Source: a bacterium (GTDB lineage Bacteria; Bacteroidota; Ignavibacteria; Kapaibacteriales; UBA2268). Taken from it: a stretch of DNA of 64,000 bases. The position numbers and the translations under genes were made by a program. Shown here one piece after another: positions 9,294 to 62,333 of the stretch. The stretch lies in NCBI GenBank assembly GCA_024711295.1, contig JANJTB010000031.1, positions 62,001 to 126,000 on the forward strand, in the 5' to 3' direction. The notes under the pieces are model-generated. The model was given only the letters and a program-made list of their open reading frames with translations. It ran no database searches and was not told the DNA's origin. Within the stretch, counting starts at the first letter, position 1. Each line of letters begins with the position of its first letter.

Positions 9294-10379
9294 TTAAATT
9301 TTTAGTAACTCATTTCTTATGGGATATTTCTTTCTAAAATCATCAAATTTGATCTTTTTTTCAGCTATATCTAATAATGCTACTTCTTTAAAGGATAAGT
9401 TATCATGTGATATTTTCCTTCTATTATCAATTTGAAGCACTAATTCGGATCTGCTAATAAATTCAGTTATAATATACTTCGTTGATTTATTTATTTCATC
9501 AAAAAGTAATGTCTTGTCAACTTCCAAATTTGAATATTCTTCAAATATCTCTATCATCTTTAGAGTACCGTTTAGTTTGCCTTCGTATGAGTGACCCGCA
9601 ATGTGTGGAGTTGCAATTAATGAAGTTTTTGCAAGTTCGGAATTAAAATCAGGCTCATTCTCCCATACATCAATAACTACAGACATTTCCTCGTTAAGAC
9701 ATTTATTTAATAAGGCATTTTCGGCCACTACATTACCTCTGGATGTATGTAAAAATAATTTGCACTTTTTTACTTTAGACATTTGAATAGTATCAAATAA
9801 CTGAAAGGTTTTATATTTTCCGGTAAAAGTTAATGGTACATGATTCGTAATAATATCTGACTCTATCAGTAAAGTATCAAAATCTACATAAGTAGTATAT
9901 TCCGGGAATGGAAAATTAGTATCATAAAGAGGTGGGTCATTAATTAGAACTTTTAAACCTATCAATTCAGAATACTTTGCAACAATTTTCCCGATATTAC
10001 CAAAGCCAACGATTCCAATTGTCAATTCATCAAAAGGTAAATCATTAGACACACAATACTTGATTACTGAATACAGTACAAATTCAGCTACTGAATTTGC
10101 ATTCGTACCCACCGCATCATAATATTTAATGCCTTGTAACTCTAAATATTCTATGTCAAAATGATCTGTACCTGAAGTTGCGGTTGCCACAACTTTTACA
10201 TTGGTTCCGTGCAGCAGGTTACCATTCACCTGAGTTTGTGACCTTGTAAATAAAATTTCACAACCGGATTGTTTCAAAATTTCATTCGTAATTTCTCGAC
10301 CTCTGAACTTATTAAATTCACAGTACTTGCCTAAAACGTTTTCGAGCATTATAATATTATCATCAGCAAAAACAACCAT
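9294..10379 (-). CDS. pdxB: 4-phosphoerythronate dehydrogenase
   Basis: A 361-residue D-isomer 2-hydroxyacid dehydrogenase that follows PdxB along its whole length. PdxB oxidises 4-phosphoerythronate, the second step of the DXP-dependent vitamin B6 route. Key stretches are an N-terminal block with RSQTQVNGNLL, TATSGTDHFD, the NAD-binding loop GIVGFGNIGK, NDPPLYD, SRGNVV (catalytic Arg), DVWENEPDFN (Glu) and ATPHIAGHSYEGK (His). The PdxB-specific C-terminal extension is present. The start overlaps the stop of the upstream reductase by one base (TAATG), so pdxB is the last gene of an operon whose other members look like polyprenyl-phosphoarabinose enzymes. There is no obvious metabolic link between them. 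Confidence 0.9.
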   Translation of the reverse strand: MVVFADDNIIMLENVLGKYCEFNKFRGREITNEILKQSGCEILFTRSQTQVNGNLLHGTNVKVVATATSGTDHFDIEYLELQGIKYYDAVGTNANSVAEFVLYSVIKYCVSNDLPFDELTIGIVGFGNIGKIVAKYSELIGLKVLINDPPLYDTNFPFPEYTTYVDFDTLLIESDIITNHVPLTFTGKYKTFQLFDTIQMSKVKKCKLFLHTSRGNVVAENALLNKCLNEEMSVVIDVWENEPDFNSELAKTSLIATPHIAGHSYEGKLNGTLKMIEIFEEYSNLEVDKTLLFDEINKSTKYIITEFISRSELVLQIDNRRKISHDNLSFKEVALLDIAEKKIKFDDFRKKYPIRNELLKI

Positions 10380-11119
10380 TACAATTTTAACCTTTTAAAT
10401 ATGCTTTCTGGAATAATTTTAATTATACACATTATCAATTGCCAGTATTTTGGAAGATAAACTATATCCTTTTTTTCTTCAAAAGCTTTAATAATTCCAT
10501 CCGCAATTACTTCAGGCTCAGTGAATAAGAAGTTCTTTTTGAGATGCGAAGTCATTGGAGTATTTACAAAACCGGGCTTAATAGTTATAATATTAATGTT
10601 GTTGTTAAACAACAGATTTCTTAGGCCTTGCAAAAATGCATCAAGCGAAGCTTTTGTAGTACCATAAACAAAGTTACTTTGGCGTCCTCTATCACCAGCT
10701 ACTGAGGATATAACAGCAATAGTTCCAAAATTTTGTACTTTTAAGTATGGAACTAATAAAGTTATGTATGACATAATTGACAGAGTATTGATTTCGAAAA
10801 GTCTCACAATTGAAATATGATCATTCATTATTTGGCTTTGGTCAGGCAATGATCCATGTGCGAACAAGATGAAATCTATTATATTGTGTTCATTAAAAAT
10901 TCTATTAATTAAATCTTTATGAGAATGAAATTCACTTGGTTCAAATATATACAAAGTAATATTAATATCAAGATAACGAACGAGTAAATCTAATTTGATT
11001 TCGTTAATTTTGCTGTAACTTCTACCAACTAAAATTAGATTATATTTCTGTTCTGCAAATTTCATGATAGTTGCTTGTGCAATTGATGATGTTGCACCAA
11101 AAATTAATGCTGTTTTCAT
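10379..11119 (-). CDS. dprE2: DprE2-like short-chain reductase (decaprenylphosphoryl-2-keto-erythropentose reductase)
   Basis: A 246-residue short-chain dehydrogenase. The ATG at 11119 is chosen because it overlaps the upstream stop as ATGA; a possible earlier start would add 7 codons. It has the nucleotide-binding loop GATSSIAQA, the Ser-Tyr-Lys triad (SSVAGDRGR, then YGTTK) and a C-terminus very like mycobacterial DprE2: NFVYGTTKASLDAF, KPGFVNTPMTSHLKK and IPESIFKRLKL. DprE2 reduces the 2-keto intermediate made by DprE1, completing epimerisation of polyprenyl-phosphoryl-ribose to the arabinose form. Adjacency to the DprE1-like gene supports this strongly. Lipid chain length cannot be predicted. 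Confidence 0.85.
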   Translation of the reverse strand: MKTALIFGATSSIAQATIMKFAEQKYNLILVGRSYSKINEIKLDLLVRYLDINITLYIFEPSEFHSHKDLINRIFNEHNIIDFILFAHGSLPDQSQIMNDHISIVRLFEINTLSIMSYITLLVPYLKVQNFGTIAVISSVAGDRGRQSNFVYGTTKASLDAFLQGLRNLLFNNNINIITIKPGFVNTPMTSHLKKNFLFTEPEVIADGIIKAFEEKKDIVYLPKYWQLIMCIIKIIPESIFKRLKL

Positions 11120-12408
11120 AAGATACTTACCCGCCTCCAAAAGTCGGATGAAAATTTGTTGTCAATGAATTTTGAAAAATGAATATGATTTGGATAGAAA
11201 GACATAAATGCTTTTTGGCTCATTCTTGCATCTTTTGCTATATAAACTCTACCACCTGCCTCAGCAACCAATTTATCAGCATAATCCAACCTTTTGAGTA
11301 AATTAAATCCTGTAAACTTGAAATCTATTGCTACTGTGACACCTTCCATAGGAAATGACATTAATCCTTTTGACTTAATTTGACCGAATGTTTTGATAAC
11401 AGTCAAAAAGGATGAATTGGTAAATGATGTAATTGATTTCAAAATCTTGCTAAGATACTTGTTCACAGATTCAAAAGGTATCACAAATTGATATTGTAAG
11501 AAACCTTTTTTTCCGTAGAATTTATTCCAATTGTTTATTTTATCAAGTGGATAAAAGAATGAGTCATAATGAATAATATTCTTTGATTTTTTCTCGAATT
11601 GTTTTGAGTAATATAATGTATTAAAGGTTTTTACAGTTAAAGGGTTAATGAAATCTAAGTTAAAAGGAATATTTATTTTTTTTCTTGAATGCAATATAGA
11701 AGGATAACTATCATCACGAATAAAATTGCCTCTCGAGAATATTCCTGAGTGTAGGTTATTTGTGTCGAGCCATGATACACTATACTCAAAATTCTCAGAC
11801 TCATTACTTAAATCTAAAAATTCTTCCAAAGATTTAAATTTTATACTTTCAGATTGGATGTAAGTCGAATTACATCTAATATTTCTGAATTTAATTTTTG
11901 TTATTAAGCCTGTAAGTCCAATTCCACCAATTGATGCAAAAAAAAGATCACTATTTATTTCTTCTGAGCACCAAAGTAAAGTTCCATCTGACCTTAATAA
12001 TTCAAATCCTAAAACATGATTACCAAAAGATCCTGCTTTATGGTGATTTTTCCCATGAACATCATTTGCAAGAGCTCCACCGACAGTGATAAGTTTTGTT
12101 CCTGGTGTTACAGGCAAAAACCAACCACGAGGTATCAAGAATTCCAGACATTCTTCGAGTGTTATACCAGATTCAACAGTTAGTTGTCCATTTTCATTAT
12201 CAAATTCAATCAATCTGTTTAAATTTCTGGTAACTATCAAATTATTATTTGAATTTAAACAGCTGTCACCATAACTTTTACCCAAGCCATAAGGAAGTAT
12301 AGAAATATTATCACTGAAATTTATATCGTCATCCAACCAATTTAAATAATAAATATTATTATGTTGTACCTTAGGATAATTGCCAAACGAACTTACAAAG
12401 TCTGTCAT
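11116..12408 (-). CDS. dprE1: DprE1-like FAD oxidase (polyprenylphosphoryl-ribose 2-epimerase oxidase subunit)
   Basis: A 430-residue PCMH-type FAD flavoprotein. The FAD block is close to DprE1: LGKSYGDS, then PVTPGTKLITVGGALANDVH and GKNHHKAGSFGNHV. Near the C-terminus, GGRVYIAKDARMS holds the catalytic lysine (K392, matching Lys418 of M. tuberculosis DprE1 as I remember it). The residue matching the benzothiazinone-reactive Cys387 is Ala360, in VAIDF. The enzyme oxidises the 2-hydroxyl of polyprenyl-phosphoryl-ribose. It lies between the HAD-UbiA and DprE2-like genes with 4-base ATGA overlaps on both sides. No signal peptide or membrane segment is seen. Confidence 0.88.
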   Translation of the reverse strand: MTDFVSSFGNYPKVQHNNIYYLNWLDDDINFSDNISILPYGLGKSYGDSCLNSNNNLIVTRNLNRLIEFDNENGQLTVESGITLEECLEFLIPRGWFLPVTPGTKLITVGGALANDVHGKNHHKAGSFGNHVLGFELLRSDGTLLWCSEEINSDLFFASIGGIGLTGLITKIKFRNIRCNSTYIQSESIKFKSLEEFLDLSNESENFEYSVSWLDTNNLHSGIFSRGNFIRDDSYPSILHSRKKINIPFNLDFINPLTVKTFNTLYYSKQFEKKSKNIIHYDSFFYPLDKINNWNKFYGKKGFLQYQFVIPFESVNKYLSKILKSITSFTNSSFLTVIKTFGQIKSKGLMSFPMEGVTVAIDFKFTGFNLLKRLDYADKLVAEAGGRVYIAKDARMSQKAFMSFYPNHIHFSKFIDNKFSSDFWRRVSIL

Positions 12409-13841
12409 AATGTTGCACCAATACCAATAACTATAATGATAAGTAATGAAATATAGCTTGATTTATCTTTTATAGCAAAAATAATTGGATCATCATTCAT
12501 ATTTCCTCTATGAGCAATGAACCAAAGTCTAAGAATCCAATGAAATAACACAGGTATAATCAGAAATAAAAGCTCTGGCTTTATGTATAATTCAACCACA
12601 GCTGGATTGTTAATATATAAGGCAAGAATTAAGGTTGACATAATACCCGAAGAAATTCCTAATGTCAGAATAAGTGGAATGTCTTCAATAAAATAATCTC
12701 TACCCCTAGTCTTGTTAATTTTTTTTGGATCAAGCCCTTTTAATTCGGTATATCTTTTAAGTGCTCCAAGTGAAAGAAAAATAAATAGAGAGAAACTAAA
12801 TAACCAAGGAGAAATTGTAGTTTCAGAAATTACACCACCAGCCAATAACCTCAACGTATATAGAAATGACAAAATAATTATATCAATAAGATACAACTTT
12901 TTAAGGTAAAATGAATATGCCAAACTCGTAAGAAAGTATATTCCTAACAAAAACATAAAGTCAATTGAGCTAGTGAAAAATGCAAGACCAAAACCAAATA
13001 CTATCAAAATTGGAATCAATTTAAATGCTGAAGAAATTTTTAATTTTCCTGATGCTATTGGTCTATTTTTTTTGGAGCTATGATTTCTATCAGATTCAAT
13101 GTCTGCTAAATCGTTGATTAAGTATATAGTTGAAGCTACCATACAAAGTGCAAAAAAACCAAAGATTGTTTGGTAAATACCATCTAATTCGAGAGTATGT
13201 GCAAGTATCATTGGAATAAATATAATTAAATTTTTTGTCCACTGATGTATTCTTATTTGAGATATAAAGACTGACCATGAGTTCTGTTCAGAATTAAAAA
13301 CCTTATCAAAAGTTACCTGACTCTTTAATTTGGAGAACAATTTATTGTTTATGTCAACCAGGTAAGATTTCCTTGCCGAAAACCATACAGGTACATCTTT
13401 TACTGAATCTCCAATATAATCGAATTGTTTAGCACCAAATATCTTATTTAACATTTCAGCTTTTTCAATGCCTAATAAATTGATATTGCTGCAACTGCTT
13501 ATTACATCATCAAAAATTTTCAAATACTCAGCAACTAAGTCTGCTAATGGTTTAGCCGTAGCAGTTACTAAAACAATTTTTCTACCTTTAGATTTTTCAA
13601 GCATAATGTAATTCAAAATCTCTTGATTAAATGGAAGAGATTTTACATTTATAATTACATATTCCAATAGTTTAAATTTAGTGAAGTACTTTCCTTTAAA
13701 TAACCAAAATGGAATTATGAAGATAAAAAATAAGTTCTTTTTTAATAAATAAATTATTGATTCAAAAAGTAAATCACTTTTAGTCAAAGTACCGTCCAAA
13801 TCAACACATAGTGGAATTGAAGAATCGTTTATAGTTGTCAT
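12405..13841 (-). CDS. HAD phosphatase-UbiA prenyltransferase fusion (polyprenyl-phosphoribose synthase)
   Basis: A 478-residue fusion. Residues 1 to about 170 are a HAD phosphatase (D14-x-D16-G-T, T94, K127, GDS at 144-146 with D149). Residues about 190-478 are a UbiA-family membrane prenyltransferase with the first Asp motif NDLADIESD (243-251), a second Asp region near YLIDIIIL and about eight membrane segments. In mycobacteria the UbiA protein Rv3806c joins PRPP to decaprenyl phosphate, and a separate phosphatase removes the 5-phosphate. The fusion could do both steps. It is the first gene of an operon with the DprE1/DprE2 pair, which fixes the likely product as polyprenyl-phosphoryl-ribose. 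Substrate choice is inferred from context. Confidence 0.85.
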   Translation of the reverse strand: MTTINDSSIPLCVDLDGTLTKSDLLFESIIYLLKKNLFFIFIIPFWLFKGKYFTKFKLLEYVIINVKSLPFNQEILNYIMLEKSKGRKIVLVTATAKPLADLVAEYLKIFDDVISSCSNINLLGIEKAEMLNKIFGAKQFDYIGDSVKDVPVWFSARKSYLVDINNKLFSKLKSQVTFDKVFNSEQNSWSVFISQIRIHQWTKNLIIFIPMILAHTLELDGIYQTIFGFFALCMVASTIYLINDLADIESDRNHSSKKNRPIASGKLKISSAFKLIPILIVFGFGLAFFTSSIDFMFLLGIYFLTSLAYSFYLKKLYLIDIIILSFLYTLRLLAGGVISETTISPWLFSFSLFIFLSLGALKRYTELKGLDPKKINKTRGRDYFIEDIPLILTLGISSGIMSTLILALYINNPAVVELYIKPELLFLIIPVLFHWILRLWFIAHRGNMNDDPIIFAIKDKSSYISLLIIIVIGIGATL

Positions 13842-28445: not shown

Positions 28446-31289
28446 CTACTTATTAATTATGATTTTATTAATAAGGATGTTTTTATCATTTTGAATAGTT
28501 AAAGTATAAACACCTTGAGCTAAGCCATTACAATTAAAATAAATAGAGCTTGAAATGTCGTCTAACTCGTACGGTATTTCAATTTTATTTCCAATAACAT
28601 CAAAAATACTTATTTTCAGGTTTTGCAAACCCAAATTATTGATTTTTACTACAAAATTCTCTTTTGCGGGGTTCGGGTAAACTATTGAATGAACATTATC
28701 TTCCTTAATACTTACGTTTTCAACTCCACAATTATCTATACTAATTATCCCTCTCAATCTAATGTCTTTAGACGAAGCTCCTATTTCAACTTCATATTTT
28801 CCTGTTTCAATTATATATTTTGATTTTGAATCATCAAAGGAGTATAATTCACTTATACTAAGTGATAGAGTATCTAAGACTGATTGACCTGATTTTAGAT
28901 TAATTCTCTTAAATTGTTTAAGCTGCTTTATTGGTTGAGTTAATCTAGAATCCAGATTTTTAACATACAATTGTACTACTTCATCCCCATCATAATCACC
29001 AATATTCTTTAGATTATATATAAATTTCACTGAATCATTTTCGCAAAATTTTATAACATTTTGATCATACTTCAAATTAGAATACTCAAATTGAGTATAG
29101 CTGAGGCCGTAACCAAAAGGATAAAGAACCTCGCCATTATAATATCTGTATGTCCTGTTATTCATATCATAATTACTAAAATCAGGCAAGTCTTCTGCTG
29201 ATTTATAATAAGTTTGAGTTGTCCTACCTGCAGGATTATAATCTCCAAAAATCACGGATGCTACAGCATTACCAGCAACCTGCCCCAAATATCCAATATT
29301 CAGAATAGTAGGAATAATTTGATTTTCTATATTCAGGGCACAAGCCGTTCCGAGATTTATCATTATGGTTGGTGTGCCACTTTTGTGCATTGCTTCAACA
29401 ACTTTTGTTTGTAAACTTGGCAAACTTAGGATTGTTCGATCACCATTTTGAAAACCTTCGGTATCTAGAAAACTCTGTTCATTTTCCCAATCTGCCGATA
29501 AACCTCCAACAAAAATAGCAGCATCGAAATCTTTTGCCATTTCAGTAATTCTTGCTAATTGTTCAGCTCCTGTGTTTCTGTTACCAATCTCATATCTAAT
29601 GTTACCAGGTGCCCAATGTTGTAAATATTCAATTTTAATTCTATAATCTTTATCAGCTTCAAAATTAAAAAATCCTATTCTTGTTATTGATGAGTGGGGT
29701 GTATAATCATCAATTACGATTTTATCTCCAATTGTAAGTCTGGTTCCATCATCACTTGTAACTTTGAAAGTATATTCTCCTGATTCAGGAACTTTTATTA
29801 TGCCTGTCCATCTCACAGAAAATGAGTCAGCACTTACACCCGGAGCAGGATCAACAAATCCCCAATCAAAATCTAAAGAGGTATCAACTCTTGTATGTTT
29901 TGGTTCTCCTTCCATGAATCGGTTATTGAAGTATTCACCTAAAAATCCGGGTTGATTGTCATTAGTTCTTACATACTTTGGTGTTATAAGCTCTGTTAAC
30001 GAGCCACCAATTTCTATCTCTCTGCTATAAATAACTTCAGTTTCAGGTGACACAATTTTTTTGATCCCTTCCAAAATTGTAACAGGTTTAGAAGGCCAAC
30101 CTGTATAGCTACCAAGGTTTTCATAAAAAACATTTGCATTTGGACCTATAACAAGTATTTTTTTTAAGTCTTTTTTTAATGGTAAAGTATTTTTATCATT
30201 TTTTAGCAATATGATAGACTCTTTTCCGGTTCTTAAAGCCAGCTCGTCATGTTTAATTCCGTCAACCAATGAATCTGGTATGTTATTATAAGGTACTATA
30301 TTAGGATCATCGTATAACCCAAGCAAATGCTTTGCTCTATACAAGCGAAACACAGCGGTGTCAATAGTGCTTTCTGTTATGTAACCTTCATTTAAGGCAT
30401 TTTTCAGGTGCCATCTGAAGAAATCACCACATTCGGAATCAACTCCGCTAATCATAGCTAATGCTGCTCCTTCTCTCTCATTTTGTCCTACCTTGTGCTC
30501 CCAAAAACTATCACCGATAGCGTTACAATCTGTTGTAACAAATCCAAGAAATCCCCATTGATTTCTCAATATTTCTTGTAAAAGATAAGTATTGGTTACT
30601 ACAGGTCTTCCATTATAAGCATTAAAAGCCGCCATTATTGAAAATGCACCAGCTTCTTCAATTGAAGCTTTAAATGCAGGCATATATGTTTCCCATAAAT
30701 CTCTTGGTTTTACAATTGCATCAAATTGATGACGAATACCTTCCGGACCACTGTGAGCAACATAATGCTTTGGTGTTGCAATGGTTTTGAAGTAATCCGG
30801 ATGGTCACCCTGCATTCCCATTATATAAGCAACAGACATTCGCGAAGCTAAATAAGGGTCTTCCCCATAAGTTTCCTGGACTCTTCCCCATCTTGGATCT
30901 CTTGCAATATTAATTGCTGGAGACCAAAAATTCAATCCAACTGCTCCATGTCTAAATTTAACTCTTGCTTCATCAGAAATAGCTGAAGCGACCTCATGCA
31001 TCAACTTTGTATTCCATGTAGATGCTAAATTTATGGATTGAGGAAATACAGTCACATTTTCAATGCATAGACCATGTTCACTCTCATTATGCCATTGATA
31101 GTCTGGTATATCTAGTCTTGGGATACCTTGTTTATTAGCTGAAATCACAGTTGATATTTTTTCGTCAATAGTAAATTGTTTAATTAGATTCCATACTCTT
31201 GAATCAAACCTCTTGATTGAATTTGTATCTAATGAAAATAAATAGCTGTTGGTAAAAATTACTAATACTAAAAAAAGCAATCTTTTCAT
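28446..31289 (-). CDS. secreted GH3 beta-glycosidase with PA14 insert and T9SS domain
   Basis: A 947-residue glycoside hydrolase family 3 enzyme. After a signal peptide come the GH3 barrel (QGIPRLDIPDYQWHNESEHG near residue 60; nucleophile Asp near 253 in GFVTTDCNAI), the second GH3 domain split by a PA14 insert (about 440-580, with ESGEYTFKVTSDDGTRL), a fibronectin-III-like domain, and a C-terminal T9SS sorting domain (YPNPAKENFVVKI). This order is typical of beta-glucosidases and beta-xylosidases acting on plant or microbial glucans. The exact sugar cannot be told. It is likely displayed on the cell surface. Confidence 0.88.
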   Translation of the reverse strand: MKRLLFLVLVIFTNSYLFSLDTNSIKRFDSRVWNLIKQFTIDEKISTVISANKQGIPRLDIPDYQWHNESEHGLCIENVTVFPQSINLASTWNTKLMHEVASAISDEARVKFRHGAVGLNFWSPAINIARDPRWGRVQETYGEDPYLASRMSVAYIMGMQGDHPDYFKTIATPKHYVAHSGPEGIRHQFDAIVKPRDLWETYMPAFKASIEEAGAFSIMAAFNAYNGRPVVTNTYLLQEILRNQWGFLGFVTTDCNAIGDSFWEHKVGQNEREGAALAMISGVDSECGDFFRWHLKNALNEGYITESTIDTAVFRLYRAKHLLGLYDDPNIVPYNNIPDSLVDGIKHDELALRTGKESIILLKNDKNTLPLKKDLKKILVIGPNANVFYENLGSYTGWPSKPVTILEGIKKIVSPETEVIYSREIEIGGSLTELITPKYVRTNDNQPGFLGEYFNNRFMEGEPKHTRVDTSLDFDWGFVDPAPGVSADSFSVRWTGIIKVPESGEYTFKVTSDDGTRLTIGDKIVIDDYTPHSSITRIGFFNFEADKDYRIKIEYLQHWAPGNIRYEIGNRNTGAEQLARITEMAKDFDAAIFVGGLSADWENEQSFLDTEGFQNGDRTILSLPSLQTKVVEAMHKSGTPTIMINLGTACALNIENQIIPTILNIGYLGQVAGNAVASVIFGDYNPAGRTTQTYYKSAEDLPDFSNYDMNNRTYRYYNGEVLYPFGYGLSYTQFEYSNLKYDQNVIKFCENDSVKFIYNLKNIGDYDGDEVVQLYVKNLDSRLTQPIKQLKQFKRINLKSGQSVLDTLSLSISELYSFDDSKSKYIIETGKYEVEIGASSKDIRLRGIISIDNCGVENVSIKEDNVHSIVYPNPAKENFVVKINNLGLQNLKISIFDVIGNKIEIPYELDDISSSIYFNCNGLAQGVYTLTIQNDKNILINKIIINK

Positions 31290-41147: not shown

Positions 41148-43889
41148 ATGAAAAATTTATACATTTTATCAATCAATAGATTTTACATATTTTTTCTTAT
41201 TTTAATCAATTCATTGATATTTTGCTACAAAAGTTTGCCGGCTCAATCAACCAGATCAGGCATAGAAATCAATGCTGAAACTAATGAGCATCCCTTATCA
41301 TTTTTAATTTATTCAAACGCTCTGGTTGATGTTAACTCAATAACTATTGAGATTAAATCAAATAATGAGTTTTCATCATTTAATACAGTAAAAGAAAATA
41401 TTACTATTGTTCCATTAAATAACAAGAAACTTGAAATATTTTGTAAAAGTCAAGCAGGATCATTGTGTTTCATTTCTTCAGACATACCCTTACTAAGCTT
41501 TATGGTTGATAGCGCAACATTTGATACTGAGTATGAAATTACTTATTTAAACTTCAATTCTCAGGAAGTATTTTCAGAAAATGTAAATTTGAGAATTCCA
41601 TCTGACGTTCTATTGTCAAACAGATGTTCAAAAAACTTCATAAATCTGAATACAGGAGTTGGATTAGCAAATCAGCAAGTTGATCCAAATTGGATTACTT
41701 CGTATAATACCCCAGTTTATGTTGTGAGTCATAATTGGCCGGTTTCCAGTTCAAATGCAAATTGGGTAAATTATTATCCCTATAATTCAGGTAGAGAAAA
41801 TGATTCAATGATATATATTCGCAAGATATGTAGTAATAAAAATACCAATGGTAACATCAATCTGTGTATAGCCGCTGATAATAGTGCAAAGGTGTATTTT
41901 AATAATCAATTAATAGCTCAAACAACAAATGGTAACTTCGGATTTATGCAATTCTCTTGTTTCAATAATATTCCGGTAAATATCAACCAAGGTGAAAATG
42001 TGTTAAAAGTAAGTGTTTCAAATTTATTGGGAAACACCGGTTTTATAATAACTAATTCAAGCTTGGTATCAAATAGCCCAAGTGTAGGTTTATTATCAGA
42101 CAGTTGCTGTAGTTCATCTTCAAGAATTTGTGGTAGAAAAATTTGGGATAAAAACTGCAATGGGAAATCTGAAGCAGGTGATATTCCATTAAGTAATTGG
42201 CCAATCTCGCTGATGACTCCGGATGGAAATACAATCAATACAATTACCGATAATGATGGAAACTTTTGCTTTGACAATCTTTTACCAGGGCAATACATAT
42301 TGTCGGAACAGTTATTGGATAGCTGGACAGCAAGTAATTCATCAGGTCCTTTTTATGTTTCACTTGAACCTTATTCAATAATTATAAGGGATTTTTTAAA
42401 CTGTAAACCACCCAAGTGTGAGGAGCTTTTTACAGAATTAGAAAATTCAGATGAGTGCTGTCAAACCAAATTTGTAATTAATAATCATGATAATTCAGGT
42501 TTACAATCAATTACATATTCAGTTAGCGGTGGGGTTATTAATAGCATTACAAGCAGCCATTGCAATTATACATCAACACCAGCTAACTTAAACGGAACAT
42601 CAACAGGCACAATTAATTTTAACTCTCAGTGTACATCTCAAAATCCAATTTTATTCTTTGTTAATGCAAGTTCATCCACTGCCTCCGGAAATATATGTAT
42701 AACGTGGAACGCTAATTATGAGCAAGGTGGGCAAACATTCAGTTGTTCTTATATCACGTGCATTAATTGTGAAAGAGCACCCAAATTTTGTAATAATAAT
42801 CTAAATGCTTCGCCTAACATTTTTGCACCAACAAATACTGATTATAGAAAATTCATAATATCAAATTTAAAATTACCAACTTCACCAATAAAGTCAATTA
42901 AGATTAAATTTATTAATGAGCCAAATCCTAATCACATAGGAGGTGGACTAGTTGTAGATGGATTAAACAGAAATTGGACTTATAATAATTCAGGCGGCCC
43001 AACCAACCCATATACGAAAGTTGATTTAGCTTGTACCGGGCAAGAAGTTCATGGACCTTCCGCAGTAAATTCTGTTGAATTAAACTTGGGAGTTGACAAG
43101 ACATTAATCCCACCCTATTCGGGAATTGTTAGTTTTGAAATTGTACATTGCGATGGGGATACGTGCGAATTGAACTATACTTGGGAACCCCCTGTAATTA
43201 ATAATTCAAATTCTACTCTAAGAGTTACAGATTCTCCTCAAGCAAAAATAAAAGTTCTGGACCTGGATTTTGAATTACCTGAGGGGGCTCAATCTTTTGC
43301 CATAATGGTAGGAGATACAACTAATAAAATATTAGCGACCACACCTCCTGCTTATAATGCAGAAAATGAAAAATCAAATCTAGTCAATTTTAGAGTTGTA
43401 TCAAGTATAAATAAAGTTTTTTATCAACAGATTACAAGCAAACATTTAATAGATAATCGAAAGTACAAAATAACATTAGCAATAATTCATGGGGAAGAAA
43501 ATCAAAGTGATAAGATAAAAACTCTGGTAACTTATTTTGATGCAACTGGTAGAGAAATTGCATTTGACGAACAATTGATTTCAGGAATAAACATTGGAGC
43601 TCTAGATTCAAAGAATTCAATCAGTTTTAAAAATATTATGAATGTTTACCCAAATCCTACAGATAAACTAATAAATATAAATTTAACCCTTGATAAATCT
43701 ACAAGAATAATTTTAAAAATAGCTGATAATTTGGGTAATGAAATAACAAATTTGATTGATGATAAGTATGTTGAATCAGGTAATCATAATTATCAATTTG
43801 ATTTAAGTACATTACCAAGTGGATTATTTCAATTGGTTTTAAATTGCAGTGGAAATATATATTTTGAAAAATTTATCATTTCAAGATAG
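41148..43889 (+). CDS. large secreted protein with SdrD-B-like domain and T9SS sorting domain
   Basis: A 913-residue exported protein. After a signal peptide (residues about 10-33, ending LPAQS) come a beta-rich region, a lectin-like middle segment (NLCIAADNSAKVYFNN, about 240-300), and an SdrD B/Cna-B-like module near 320-420 (GRKIWDKNCNGKSEAGDIPL, then DGNFCFDNLLPGQYILSEQ). Cysteine-rich repeats follow, and the C-terminus is a T9SS domain (VYPNPTDKLININ). Such proteins are typically cell-surface adhesins or matrix proteins. No enzyme motif is seen. The many Asn and Ser residues are usual for this genome's exported proteins. Confidence 0.78.
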   Translation: MKNLYILSINRFYIFFLILINSLIFCYKSLPAQSTRSGIEINAETNEHPLSFLIYSNALVDVNSITIEIKSNNEFSSFNTVKENITIVPLNNKKLEIFCKSQAGSLCFISSDIPLLSFMVDSATFDTEYEITYLNFNSQEVFSENVNLRIPSDVLLSNRCSKNFINLNTGVGLANQQVDPNWITSYNTPVYVVSHNWPVSSSNANWVNYYPYNSGRENDSMIYIRKICSNKNTNGNINLCIAADNSAKVYFNNQLIAQTTNGNFGFMQFSCFNNIPVNINQGENVLKVSVSNLLGNTGFIITNSSLVSNSPSVGLLSDSCCSSSSRICGRKIWDKNCNGKSEAGDIPLSNWPISLMTPDGNTINTITDNDGNFCFDNLLPGQYILSEQLLDSWTASNSSGPFYVSLEPYSIIIRDFLNCKPPKCEELFTELENSDECCQTKFVINNHDNSGLQSITYSVSGGVINSITSSHCNYTSTPANLNGTSTGTINFNSQCTSQNPILFFVNASSSTASGNICITWNANYEQGGQTFSCSYITCINCERAPKFCNNNLNASPNIFAPTNTDYRKFIISNLKLPTSPIKSIKIKFINEPNPNHIGGGLVVDGLNRNWTYNNSGGPTNPYTKVDLACTGQEVHGPSAVNSVELNLGVDKTLIPPYSGIVSFEIVHCDGDTCELNYTWEPPVINNSNSTLRVTDSPQAKIKVLDLDFELPEGAQSFAIMVGDTTNKILATTPPAYNAENEKSNLVNFRVVSSINKVFYQQITSKHLIDNRKYKITLAIIHGEENQSDKIKTLVTYFDATGREIAFDEQLISGINIGALDSKNSISFKNIMNVYPNPTDKLININLTLDKSTRIILKIADNLGNEITNLIDDKYVESGNHNYQFDLSTLPSGLFQLVLNCSGNIYFEKFIISR

Positions 43890-43927: not shown

Positions 43928-44797
43928 ATGATGCAAAATCAAAAAAAATCTTACATATATGCATTTGTAACTGTTTTTTTATGGTCAACTGTAGCAAGTG
44001 CTTTCAAGATCGGGCTCGATTATTATAGCCCGGATTTATTATTATTGATTTCTTCAATAGTTTCTACCGTTTTTTTCTTTACATTGATGCTTAATCATTC
44101 CAAAAAGAATTTATATACAAAAGACAATATTTTTAAATCTTTATTTGCAGGTTTACTTAATCCATTTCTTTATTACTTAATTTTATTCAAAGCTTACGAT
44201 ATGATACCTGCTCAAGTCGCTCAACCTCTTAATTACACCTGGATTATCGTAGTTACAGTATTGATGAGCATTTCAAACAAAAAGCGACTTTCAATTATTA
44301 CTATTTCCGGTCTTTTAATAAGTTTTACTGGTGTTGTTGTAATAAGTGCTCAGGGGAACGCTTCGGGTAAGGAAATCAATATAATAGGAGTTGGACTTGC
44401 TTTAATTAGCTCTGTTTTTTGGGGTTTTTACTGGCTGATTAATTTAAAAGACACAAGGCAGGATGTTGAAAAACTTTTTATGAACTTTTTTGTGGGTACA
44501 ATTTTTATAAGCATTTATGTTTTGATTTTTTCAGATTTTAAATACTCCTTCGAAGGTACAATGGCAGGTATTTATATTGGTTTATTCGAAATGGGGGCAA
44601 CTTTTTTTGTATGGCTTAAAGCACTTAAATATTCTGAAGATACAGGCAAGACAGGTAATATAATTTATTTAACTCCCTTTATATCGTTAATATTTATTAG
44701 TTTGATACTTAAAGAAGTAATTTCAATCAACTCTTTTTTAGGTTTGATTTTAATTATTGGTGGAATTGTCATTACTTCAAGGGTAAAAAATATTTAA
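43928..44797 (+). CDS. EamA/DMT family transporter
   Basis: A 289-residue membrane protein with ten predicted membrane segments in two EamA repeats (first starting SYIYAFVTVFLWSTVASAF, second from NIIGVGLALISSVFWGFYWL). The second half ends in GLILIIGGIVITSR, as in many drug/metabolite transporters that export amino acids or other small molecules. The substrate is unknown. The two ATGs at 43928 and 43931 sit right behind a promoter-like TACTTTTG, so the message may have almost no leader. It is unlinked in function to its neighbours as far as can be seen. Confidence 0.88.
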   Translation: MMQNQKKSYIYAFVTVFLWSTVASAFKIGLDYYSPDLLLLISSIVSTVFFFTLMLNHSKKNLYTKDNIFKSLFAGLLNPFLYYLILFKAYDMIPAQVAQPLNYTWIIVVTVLMSISNKKRLSIITISGLLISFTGVVVISAQGNASGKEINIIGVGLALISSVFWGFYWLINLKDTRQDVEKLFMNFFVGTIFISIYVLIFSDFKYSFEGTMAGIYIGLFEMGATFFVWLKALKYSEDTGKTGNIIYLTPFISLIFISLILKEVISINSFLGLILIIGGIVITSRVKNI

Positions 44798-44888: not shown

Positions 44889-46793
44889 ATGGGAAATAAA
44901 AAAGTTAAGCAGAGTAGGAAAAATAAAATTGATAGTACAGTTCAATTATTCATTCCTAACCTAAAAATATTCAGCATTATCTTAGCTGTGATTTCAATTG
45001 CATTATATGCAAATACTATTAATCACGATTATGTATTAGATGATTATTCTTTAATCAAAGAAAATAGGTTTACAAAGGCAGGATTTGACGGAATTGGTGA
45101 CATATTGAGTAAAGATATGTTTGCCGGACATGTTGAAAACTATAATGCTGATTTAGCAGGGGGAAGATACAGACCACTTTCTCAAATTACTTTTGCAATA
45201 GAAGTTGAATTATTCGGACTAAACCCAAAAACTGGACACGTTGGAAATATCTTACTATTTTCTCTTACTTCAATATTTGTGTTTTTGTCATTAAGTCAAT
45301 TATTGAAAGATTTTAAATTTTACGATAATGAATGGTATTTGAATGTACCTTTTATAGCTGCTTTGATTTTTGCAATTCATCCAATACATACTGAAGCTGT
45401 TGCAAACATTAAAGGTCGTGACGAAATCATGGCTCTTTTGCTTATATTAGTATCTTTTTATTATTTCCTTAAGTATTATGATTATCAAAAAAGATCCTAT
45501 CTGATTGTTTCTGTTGTCGCTTTTTTCCTCGCATTGATGTCAAAGGAAAATGCTATTACTTACATGGCAGTATTACCACTGAGCCTTATATTGTTTAGAG
45601 AAGTTAAAATTTCCGAAAGCGTAAAATCTGTAATTTATCACTTTGTTGTCACAGCACTGTTTTTAATAATTAGGCAATCTATAGTTGGTACAGCAAAAGA
45701 ATTACCTATACCTGAATTAATGAATGAACCATTTTATGGCATGACTTTTATTGAAAAATACTCAACAATTTTTGCAACACTTCTATATTACATAAAATTA
45801 CTAATTATTCCCTACCCACTTACCTATGATTATTACCCCTATCACGTAGAAAAACTTAGCCTGATGAACTTCGATTTGGATACAATTTATGCCATACTTT
45901 TATATTCAGCAATTTTATTTTATGCAATTAAGTATTATAAATCAAACAAAATTATCAGCTTTTCAATTTTTTATTATATAATAACTATATCAATAGTTTC
46001 TAATTTACTCTTTACAATCGGCTCATTTATGAATGAACGATTTGTATTTATGCCTTCTGTTGCAATTGGTTTAGTTATTGCTTGGATTTTATCATATTAT
46101 ATATTTAACAGATTCCAAAATAAAATAGTTGTAATTGCATTAATTACTACAGTTTTCATGGCATATACTTACATTACTTTTAATAGAAATCAGGTTTGGA
46201 AAGATAACTTTACACTTATGACAACTGATGTTGAAACATCATCTAACAGTGCATTCGGTAATTTCGCTGCAGGTGGGCAATATTACATAAAAGGTCAAAA
46301 GGAGCAGAATCAAATTGAGAAGCAAAAATATTTCAACAAAGCAAAAAAGCATCTTTATAAATCTTTAGAAATATATCCAAGATATTCAAATGCAGCACTC
46401 AGTTTAGGAAATGTGTACTACACTGAAAGTAAAAATGCAGACAGTACTATAAAATATTATAAACTATCGTTTGACGTTTATTCTTACAATTACGAAACAG
46501 CTATTAATTTAGGAAGACTTTACCGAGATAGTAAGAAAGATTTTAAAAATGCAGAATTCTATTTCAAGCATTGCTTCAAAGTAAATCCTAACAGATTTGA
46601 AGCTTATAATGAGTTAGGTGTAATTTACTTCAACTCAAGAAACTTTTCAGAAGCCGCCTTGATGTTCGAAAATGCAATAAATAGAAATCCCTCTAATAAG
46701 TTAATATATAAGAACCTTCATGCAGTCTATCTTGCCTTAGGCAATAAGGAAAAAGCAGAAGAATACCTTTTGAGAGCAAATTCAATAAGATAA
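44889..46793 (+). CDS. TMTC-like multipass membrane protein with TPR domain
   Basis: A 634-residue protein. About eleven membrane segments in residues 25-430 are followed by three to four TPRs (about 455-634, for example AALSLGNVYYTESKNADS and AYNELGVIYFNSRNFSEAA). The N-terminal blocks NTINHDYVLDDYSLI and GGRYRPLSQITFAIE, and HPIHTEAVANIKGRDEIMALL in the fourth loop, match the TMTC/DUF1736 group. Eukaryotic TMTC proteins are O-mannosyltransferases that use dolichyl-phosphate-mannose. By analogy this is probably a GT-C glycosyltransferase using a polyprenyl-phosphate sugar and acting on exported proteins. The donor and target are not known. Confidence 0.78.
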   Translation: MGNKKVKQSRKNKIDSTVQLFIPNLKIFSIILAVISIALYANTINHDYVLDDYSLIKENRFTKAGFDGIGDILSKDMFAGHVENYNADLAGGRYRPLSQITFAIEVELFGLNPKTGHVGNILLFSLTSIFVFLSLSQLLKDFKFYDNEWYLNVPFIAALIFAIHPIHTEAVANIKGRDEIMALLLILVSFYYFLKYYDYQKRSYLIVSVVAFFLALMSKENAITYMAVLPLSLILFREVKISESVKSVIYHFVVTALFLIIRQSIVGTAKELPIPELMNEPFYGMTFIEKYSTIFATLLYYIKLLIIPYPLTYDYYPYHVEKLSLMNFDLDTIYAILLYSAILFYAIKYYKSNKIISFSIFYYIITISIVSNLLFTIGSFMNERFVFMPSVAIGLVIAWILSYYIFNRFQNKIVVIALITTVFMAYTYITFNRNQVWKDNFTLMTTDVETSSNSAFGNFAAGGQYYIKGQKEQNQIEKQKYFNKAKKHLYKSLEIYPRYSNAALSLGNVYYTESKNADSTIKYYKLSFDVYSYNYETAINLGRLYRDSKKDFKNAEFYFKHCFKVNPNRFEAYNELGVIYFNSRNFSEAALMFENAINRNPSNKLIYKNLHAVYLALGNKEKAEEYLLRANSIR

Positions 46794-49877: not shown

Positions 49878-51083
49878 ATGACTAAGACATTATTATTCAT
49901 ATTTCTTGTCTTCAATATTGAAGTAGTCGGGCAGAATCAGAGAATTATTTCTTATAATTTATTTGACAGAACAGTAGATACCCTAGACCTGGTTGATTTT
50001 GATTCGACTATTGTTAGCGAAATGACCGAATATTATATTGGAAATTTTAATAATGATATTAATCTTTTAAGCGAAAAAGCTCCAGTTGACAATGTTTTTC
50101 CTGGTAGCAATTTTACACGAAAAAGACAAGCTTCTTTAGACTTTGATATAAATAATTACCCTATTAGAACGACTGTTAAATTATTCAAACTTGAAAATGA
50201 TTCAATAAAGAGTAAATGTTCGGGAAGTTTAATTAGCCGAAAGCATGTATTGACTGCGTGTCATTGTGTTGCAAAAATTGATAAAGATTCATTATTATAT
50301 GATTCACTATTTATTTGTCCTGCTTTAGACAATGGAAGAACTAATAACAATTTTGAATGTAGTTGGGTAAAAAAAATATTTATTTTTGAAAATTGGAATA
50401 TCTCTAATTCTGACTTTTCAGTTTTAGAATTAGAAAAACCTATTGGAGATGATACAGGATGGATAAGTATTGGATTTGAATCTGATAATGCATCATTGTT
50501 GGATGGGATATTCTATAAGTTTTCATATCCTGCTACAACTATTCTCACATTAGATTCTAATTCATATAATGGAGATACTCTTTATTATGGCTACGGTATC
50601 GCTGATGTTGTAATGAATAATAGTTTTGGAGTAAAATATACCAATGGTATACCTGGAGAAAGTGGTAGTTCTTTGATAAAAATTAAGAATTATAAAACCT
50701 ATACTAGTTATGGAGTTCTTTCTTGGTCTAACAATTTAAATCATAGCAGATTGACAAATTGGAAATATTATGCACTAAAATCAATTATAAGTAATGACCT
50801 TGCTGAGTTAAACGATAATATCATAGACATACCAGAAATTTCAATCTTTCCTATTCCTACATCAGATTATCTTAATGTAATTTATTTAGCTGAATATAAA
50901 TTTAACAAACTCATACTTTTTGACTTAAATGGGAGAAAAGTCCTAGAAAAAACAAACCTAACAAATGAAATTCAATTAAATTTATCATTTCTACAAAGTG
51001 GAACATACATTATGATTATTTATTCTGATAAAAGGCATTTTGTAAATAAAATAGTTAAAACAACTGCTAATAACGATTATTAA
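49878..51083 (+). CDS. secreted trypsin-like serine protease with T9SS sorting domain
   Basis: A 401-residue protein: signal peptide (to about residue 19), a pro-region, a trypsin-fold domain (about 95-310) and a C-terminal T9SS domain (from about SIFPIPTSDYLNVIY). The triad reads H129 in LTACHC, D179 in NSDFSVLELE and S262 in GIPGESGSS (in place of GDSGG). A cysteine replaces the usual Ala before the His and could pair with another of the few cysteines. It is likely secreted to the surface or medium. Codon use is even more A+T-rich than nearby genes, and the long flanking gaps suggest an accessory gene. Confidence 0.82.
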   Translation: MTKTLLFIFLVFNIEVVGQNQRIISYNLFDRTVDTLDLVDFDSTIVSEMTEYYIGNFNNDINLLSEKAPVDNVFPGSNFTRKRQASLDFDINNYPIRTTVKLFKLENDSIKSKCSGSLISRKHVLTACHCVAKIDKDSLLYDSLFICPALDNGRTNNNFECSWVKKIFIFENWNISNSDFSVLELEKPIGDDTGWISIGFESDNASLLDGIFYKFSYPATTILTLDSNSYNGDTLYYGYGIADVVMNNSFGVKYTNGIPGESGSSLIKIKNYKTYTSYGVLSWSNNLNHSRLTNWKYYALKSIISNDLAELNDNIIDIPEISIFPIPTSDYLNVIYLAEYKFNKLILFDLNGRKVLEKTNLTNEIQLNLSFLQSGTYIMIIYSDKRHFVNKIVKTTANNDY

Positions 51084-61811: not shown

Positions 61812-62333
61812 TTGAAAAAAGTTTTATATTTTCTTTTTGCATTAGGGTTTATAATTTGGTTTGGTGGTTCAATTGTCAGAAATGTTATAATTTTTGATTT
61901 ATTTGTGCCTGCTCAGGAATTAACCTTCGAGCCGAAGTATGATGATTCAATAATCAATTATAATATTGAGTTATATGTTGCAACGTCACTATATACTAAT
62001 GTTTCTTATGCAGTAATTTTTGTAATATCATTAATTTTGCTTTATTCTGAAAGAAGAAATCTCCGGCAACATGGCTGGTTGTTTATGTCATTTATTGTAT
62101 TCTTTATTGCTTCTCCCATAATTATCTATAATATTTATTTAGATTTAGGATTAAGTTTTGCAATTTTTTATCATGACTTCTCATTCCTGAATTATGACAT
62201 AAAAACAGAAATTTTTAACAGATACAAAAGTAATTTAAATACTGTTTTGTCAGGTATATCATATTTAAGCACAATTACAATATTGTTTTATGTTATATGG
62301 AAACCATTGAAGAATCCGAATGATAAAACATAA
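61812..62333 (+). CDS. four-pass membrane protein of unknown function
   Basis: A 173-residue membrane protein with about four membrane segments (near residues 4-27, 61-81, 88-110 and 145-165). The start codon appears to be TTG, since no in-frame ATG precedes it and the frame is open only to here. I recognise no family for certain. It overlaps the next gene by 14 bases and begins a tightly packed run of genes that ends with a YbbR-like protein. Confidence 0.6.
   Translation: MKKVLYFLFALGFIIWFGGSIVRNVIIFDLFVPAQELTFEPKYDDSIINYNIELYVATSLYTNVSYAVIFVISLILLYSERRNLRQHGWLFMSFIVFFIASPIIIYNIYLDLGLSFAIFYHDFSFLNYDIKTEIFNRYKSNLNTVLSGISYLSTITILFYVIWKPLKNPNDKT

Follow-up and report, generated by a model that had tools for sequence, protein, structure and literature searches.

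The HAD-UbiA fusion protein ORF15 of Citrobacter was proven in vitro to possess both of its activities and to form polyprenyl-phosphoryl-ribofuranose, and its catalytic motifs were tested by mutation (Kelly 2024, PMC11127046). The operons noeCHOP of Azorhizobium and noeCNHOP of Rhizobium IRBG74 serve the D-arabinosylation of Nod factors, with noeC, noeH and noeO matching steps of decaprenyl-phosphoryl-arabinose synthesis (PMC5080398, PMC2443382), and the genes PSPA7_6245-6251 of Pseudomonas paraeruginosa make a D-arabinofuranose (D-Araf) glycan of its pilin (cited in PMC12369383). Runs composed of HAD-UbiA, DprE1-like and short-chain dehydrogenase/reductase (SDR) genes further lie on plasmids of Rhizobium (R. 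tumorigenes NZ_CP117262.1, Rhizobium sp. N324 NZ_CP013632.1) and Azospirillum (A. thermophilum NZ_CP029359.1), and a Flammeovirgaceae plasmid (Bacteroidota) carries a UbiA gene without the HAD domain together with DprE1-like and SDR genes. Here we analyse a stretch of 64,000 nucleotides (the window; positions 62,001 to 126,000 of contig JANJTB010000031.1, assembly GCA_024711295.1, Bacteroidota, Kapaibacteriales), on whose minus strand four genes run head to tail from 13841 to 9294, encoding a HAD-UbiA fusion, a DprE1-like oxidase, a DprE2-like reductase and a PdxB-like dehydrogenase.

We consider it quite probable, judging from sequence comparisons, that this operon produces a lipid-linked D-arabinofuranose donor and belongs, as a representative from Bacteroidota, to the pentofuranose systems described by Kelly et al. 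2024. Arabinose-donor operons outside Actinobacteria are already known, and the present one is a well-conserved further case. Hence the novelty claimed for it in the original prediction, a short note made from the bare DNA sequence, has to be given up, since noeCHOP, PSPA7_6245-6251 and the Rhizobium/Azospirillum plasmid operons precede it. Nor is the fusion of the phosphatase to the prenyltransferase new, given the biochemically proven Citrobacter fusion (PMC11127046) and the existence of a curated NCBI model, NF006088, for it.

Results and Discussion

The enzymes of the operon

The fusion gene (12405..13841, minus strand) encodes a putative HAD phosphatase-UbiA polyprenyl-phosphate phosphoribosyltransferase of 478 aa, with the HAD domain at approximately residues 14-151 and the UbiA domain at approximately 190-475. 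Both domains are recognized by Pfam (HAD 29.8 bits, cut-off 27; UbiA 77.5 bits), and NF006088, which spans the two of them, scores 561.8 bits over model positions 8-480 of 482, well beyond its cut-off of 351. The sole credible match in the PDB is the mycobacterial decaprenyl-phosphate phosphoribosyltransferase (DPPRS; 9e-23). The HAD motif DLDGT is kept, with D14 as the nucleophile, as are N243/D244/D247/D251 and R363/E366 of the UbiA domain, whose Citrobacter counterparts are N247/D248/D251/D255 and R366/E369; the fusion thus has both the N/D motif and the R/E pair of the polyprenyl-phosphoryl-phosphoribose synthases (PPPRS).

The oxidase (11116..12408, minus strand; 430 aa) belongs to the FAD_binding_4 family (80.9 bits) of flavin adenine dinucleotide (FAD)-dependent enzymes and the reductase (10379..11119, minus strand; 246 aa) to adh_short (91.8 bits). 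With the DprE1 model NF053785 the oxidase scores 327 bits, the next family reaching 49, and in the PDB it finds DprE1 at 2e-68 vs 1.6e-9 for the next FAD oxidase; the reductase finds DprE2 at 4.5e-32 vs 1.4e-14 for the next SDR. In maximum-likelihood trees the oxidase groups with DprE1 of Mycobacterium tuberculosis (Mtb), apart from GlcD/GlcE (support 100/99), and the reductase with Mtb DprE2, apart from four Escherichia coli SDRs (100/98). Both trees have few outgroups, on long branches, and partial mycobacterial sequences, taken from printed alignments, so that it is the grouping that was tested and not the fine branching. The phylogeny that the original prediction had named as contradicting it, with oxidase and reductase falling among unrelated FAD oxidases and SDRs, was therefore looked for and not found. 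Residues H132, K134, W230, Q334, Q336, K367 and K418 (Mtb DprE1 numbering), positions which we take to be functionally important, are conserved in the oxidase, and the YxxxK motif is present in the reductase.

Adjacent genes overlap by 4 bases (fusion and oxidase), 4 bases (oxidase and reductase) and 1 base (reductase and PdxB-like gene). The first of the reductase overlaps assumes a start at the ATG at 11119, which we regard as more likely than the TTG at 11140 of the mechanically called open reading frame (10379-11140). The three overlapping genes were correctly recognized in the original prediction, in agreement with reading frames, coordinates and family matches, and it was the fourth, the PdxB-like gene, that was overlooked there.

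Since the proteins are credible relatives of polyprenyl-phosphoryl-phosphoribose synthase plus phosphatase, DprE1 and DprE2, as judged by Pfam, NCBIfam, PDB and motifs, the donor pathway reads as complete, much as first proposed. The carrier would most likely be undecaprenyl phosphate. After transfer of phosphoribose onto it, the fused HAD domain would strip the 5'-phosphate, the DprE1-like enzyme would oxidise C2 and the DprE2-like enzyme would reduce it with inversion, to give polyprenyl-phosphoryl-D-arabinofuranose. A flippase of the MOP family, encoded outside the window on contig C38 of the same genome, may then move the lipid-linked sugar into the periplasm, where a GT-C protein resembling AftB (contig C2) could transfer arabinose to an envelope glycan perhaps containing galactofuranose (Galf); the UDP-galactopyranose mutase Glf is encoded on contig C25. 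Kinship of the enzymes is what the sequence shows directly; we infer the chemistry, the lipid, the epimer, the cargo of the flippase, the linkage and the acceptor.

Conservation in related genomes

Genomes were searched as draft assemblies. The NF006088 cut-off is passed by 84 of 119 genomes of the same Bacteroidota order and by 51 of 395 in a phylum-wide sample. A scan of genome contigs yielded mainly UbiA proteins from Chloroflexi. Across the 119 genomes, 90 have both UbiA and DprE1, 26 have neither and 3 are discordant (uncorrected for kinship), so that the pairing is near-universal in this order; because the two are jointly present or jointly absent in nearly all of these genomes, the operon is not a chance association. 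The gene order, for which the original prediction proposed a survey of related genomes, is conserved as well: a DprE1-like gene closely follows UbiA in 18, and a DprE2-like gene in 13, of the 20 neighbourhoods read. Families f2 and f8 contain genomes whose UbiA is without the HAD domain, and in G023 (C107:7062-8512) the HAD and UbiA matches fall in separate overlapping frames, reflecting either a gene that is split or faulty assembly.

Upstream of the donor genes, relatives in the same family carry genes for a TPR lipoprotein, DUF3467, a GH57 branching-enzyme-like protein, a PF01943 flippase and Glf; by coordinates, Glf and the fusion gene are direct neighbours in 19 genomes from 10 genera. 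In G006 a single gene run comprises the donor genes, Glf, a Wzx-like flippase, a GT-C gene flanked by DUF3467 and GH57, and, following DprE2, an EamA transporter. In the window's own genome these genes are spread over three contigs: C38 carries DUF3467, GH57 and the flippase (448 bits for the flippase), C25 carries Glf (423 bits) and C2 the GT-C gene (280 bits). A GtrA-type (Rv3789-like) flippase was also considered and rejected, exceeding the cut-off in 1 of the 119 genomes, and not in the window's own.

The DUF3467, GH57 and PF01943 genes cluster family-wide, even away from arabinose genes (L150:7752-11249; L083, L085, L108, L115, L116, L117). The Glf gene of the window's genome (L102/L103, G000:C25, approximately 72.9-77 kb) adjoins a GT10 fucosyltransferase-like gene and an HGSNAT-type acyltransferase gene, an order also seen in G002 (L106); a 638-aa membrane protein near Glf was considered as a GT-C candidate and rejected as ComEC-like.

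A candidate user of the donor

The AftB-like GT-C protein is encoded at 25254-26822 of C2, outside the window. When a profile of 17 such GT-C proteins was compared with the PDB, AftB (9dlf) was the sole match below E=1, at 1.4e-4. In this alignment D61 and D62 of the AftB DD motif are identical, as are E172 and R221, and T91 and T274 are replaced by Ser; D62 is the nucleophile of AftB and E172 and R221 are donor-pocket residues (PMC12041299). The alignment stops at AftB residue 317, short of R372, for which R329, invariant across the GT-C family, is a candidate counterpart. UbiA is present in 32 of 33 GT-C-bearing genomes (Fisher p ~0.001, uncorrected for kinship). A survey of relatives for GT-C genes, proposed in the original prediction, thus turned up an AftB-like family, whose member in G006 stands inside the donor run. 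In G017, G020 and G034 the GT-C gene is located with DUF3467 and GH57, apart from the donor genes. On C2 of the window's genome its neighbour is a second GT-C gene, ArnT-like and in convergent orientation (NF009784 97.8 bits, below cut-off; L147:9246-10838 and 10840-12501).

Weighing the interpretation

Several observations speak against the arabinose interpretation or parts of it. All three proteins have mycobacterial enzymes as their closest relatives in the PDB, as the original prediction led one to expect, but all fall below the NCBI equivalog cut-offs: the fusion scores 115.6, 141 and 141.7 bits with the mycobacterial DPPRS models (PRK12324, NF008976-NF008978) vs cut-offs of 474, 234 and 207, the 327 bits of the oxidase compare with 500 required by NF053785, which is passed by 0 of 119 related genomes, and the reductase reaches 177 bits with the DprE2 equivalog NF053786, under its cut-off of 250. 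Y314, N385 and C387 of Mtb DprE1 are replaced in the oxidase by Phe, Thr and Ala. The partner genes sit, in the window's genome, on contigs separate from the donor operon, and at the threshold used the GT-C family occurs in just 32 of 92 UbiA-positive genomes, leaving 60 of 92 without it. Finally, the flippase-Glf pair is found without donor genes in G004 and G035, and the flippase may therefore serve another, galactofuranose-containing glycan.

It could be argued that the fusion makes polyprenyl-phosphoryl-ribose and that the redox pair then yields another pentofuranose, for example xylose by inversion at C3, or no net change, instead of arabinose. In Citrobacter O2 an additional SDR epimerase does turn the ribose donor into xylofuranose (PMC11127046), the reductase fits the uncharacterised SDR model NF005489 better (258 bits, also below its cut-off, 267) than the DprE2 model, and N385 and Y314 are among the replaced DprE1 positions. 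Yet the Citrobacter xylose enzyme is a lone SDR epimerase unaccompanied by an FAD oxidase, DprE1/E2 homologues were reported from Araf loci by Kelly et al. (PMC11127046), and the oxidase and reductase here cluster with DprE1 and DprE2 in the trees, so that we hold this outcome to be unlikely. That an unrelated FAD oxidase and an SDR came to lie by chance beside a prenyltransferase with an aromatic or quinone substrate is conceivable insofar as the families UbiA, FAD_binding_4 and adh_short are large and serve many purposes. It becomes extremely improbable, however, in view of the next PDB families being many orders of magnitude weaker, the trees, the conserved gene order and the joint absence of the genes; moreover, two further UbiA genes of the same genome have putative quinone- or haem-type roles.

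The donor might also be made as proposed but used by the TMTC-like TPR protein at 44889-46793, which the original prediction had put forward as a possible user, perhaps with the EamA transporter encoded at 43928-44797. EamA-type transporters are candidate flippases, and the one in the window possibly acts as a lipid-sugar flippase; its gene lies just upstream of the TMTC-like gene on the same strand, and its product is 43.7% identical to the EamA protein encoded directly after DprE2 in G006 (L115:4227-5132). On the other hand, the AftB-like profile gives no match to the TMTC-like protein at E<=1, related TMTC-like proteins (23-25% identical) are not encoded beside donor genes in the neighbourhoods read, except at a distance in G001, and it is the AftB-like GT-C gene that sits within the donor gene run in G006. 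We accordingly regard use by the TMTC-like protein as decidedly improbable and the AftB-like GT-C protein as the better candidate, as far as profiles and neighbourhoods can tell. A more far-reaching proposal is that the order builds an arabinogalactan-like envelope glycan, with Galf provided via Glf and D-Araf added in the periplasm by the AftB-like GT-C, in parallel to the mycobacterial wall; this we put forward tentatively, as a possibility on the doubtful side.

If the arabinose interpretation holds, lipid-linked D-arabinose would come close to a core trait in one Bacteroidota order, beyond mycobacteria and a few proteobacteria, and the GT-C, flippase and Glf partners would be testable by name. 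The present analysis contributes the conserved association with Glf, a flippase and an AftB-like GT-C, through which a broad conjecture on some surface glycan becomes a pathway open to testing. The operon points to a sugar coat, so far unstudied, in this order. Since C387 of Mtb DprE1 is the cysteine attacked by benzothiazinone drugs, the DprE1-like oxidase with Ala in its place is expected to be naturally insensitive to them, and the oxidases of this order, which lack this cysteine, would make natural comparison enzymes.

Other features of the operon and window

The last gene of the operon (9294..10379, minus strand) encodes a PdxB-like 2-hydroxyacid dehydrogenase of 361 aa (NF001309 273 bits, below the cut-off of 434). 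Among the neighbourhoods read, those of the three genomes from this genus (48-54% identity) are the only ones in which it adjoins DprE2; its part in the arabinose pathway is doubtful, and it is perhaps no more than a usual pyridoxal-phosphate gene carried along with the operon. Matches to sigma-70 promoters numbered 47 vs 37.3 (standard deviation 6.1) in shuffled sequence, too close to chance to be of use. Elsewhere in the window three proteins (28446-31289, 41148-43889 and 49878-51083) carry the type IX secretion sorting domain Por_Secre_tail; among the three are a GH3 enzyme that also has a PA14 domain and a trypsin-like protein.

Comparison with described systems

With the noe operons the locus shares UbiA-, DprE1- and DprE2-type genes in a single operon outside Actinobacteria, whereas their acceptor is the Nod factor and their proposed transferase noeP. 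PSPA7_6245-6251 likewise combine UbiA and DprE1/E2-type enzymes for a D-Araf donor with a GT-C user, TfpW, but their phosphatase is separate and of another structural family (PMC11127046) and the acceptor is the type IV pilin. The runs on the Rhizobium and Azospirillum plasmids differ in including a GtrA-family gene and in their alphaproteobacterial hosts. The mycobacterial decaprenyl-phosphoryl-arabinose pathway (Rv3806c, Rv3807c, DprE1 and DprE2, with AftB as user), whose lipid-linked arabinose goes into the cell wall, has the same presumed order of reactions, and the solved structures nearest to all three proteins and to the GT-C come from it; in contrast to it, the phosphatase here is a fused HAD domain and not Rv3807c, the sequences lie under the equivalog cut-offs, and the genome has no GtrA-type flippase above cut-off. 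Finally, the three-component system of Citrobacter youngae O1/O2 possesses a HAD(PRP)-UbiA(PPPRS) fusion with identical catalytic motifs, as well as a MOP-superfamily flippase and a GT-C as partners, for which the present genome has candidate counterparts, and the Araf loci of the same study contain DprE1/E2 homologues. The present locus departs from it in its Bacteroidota host, in having its partners on other contigs, in a GT-C that is AftB-like by profile, and in the Glf, GH57 and DUF3467 genes that accompany the system in relatives.

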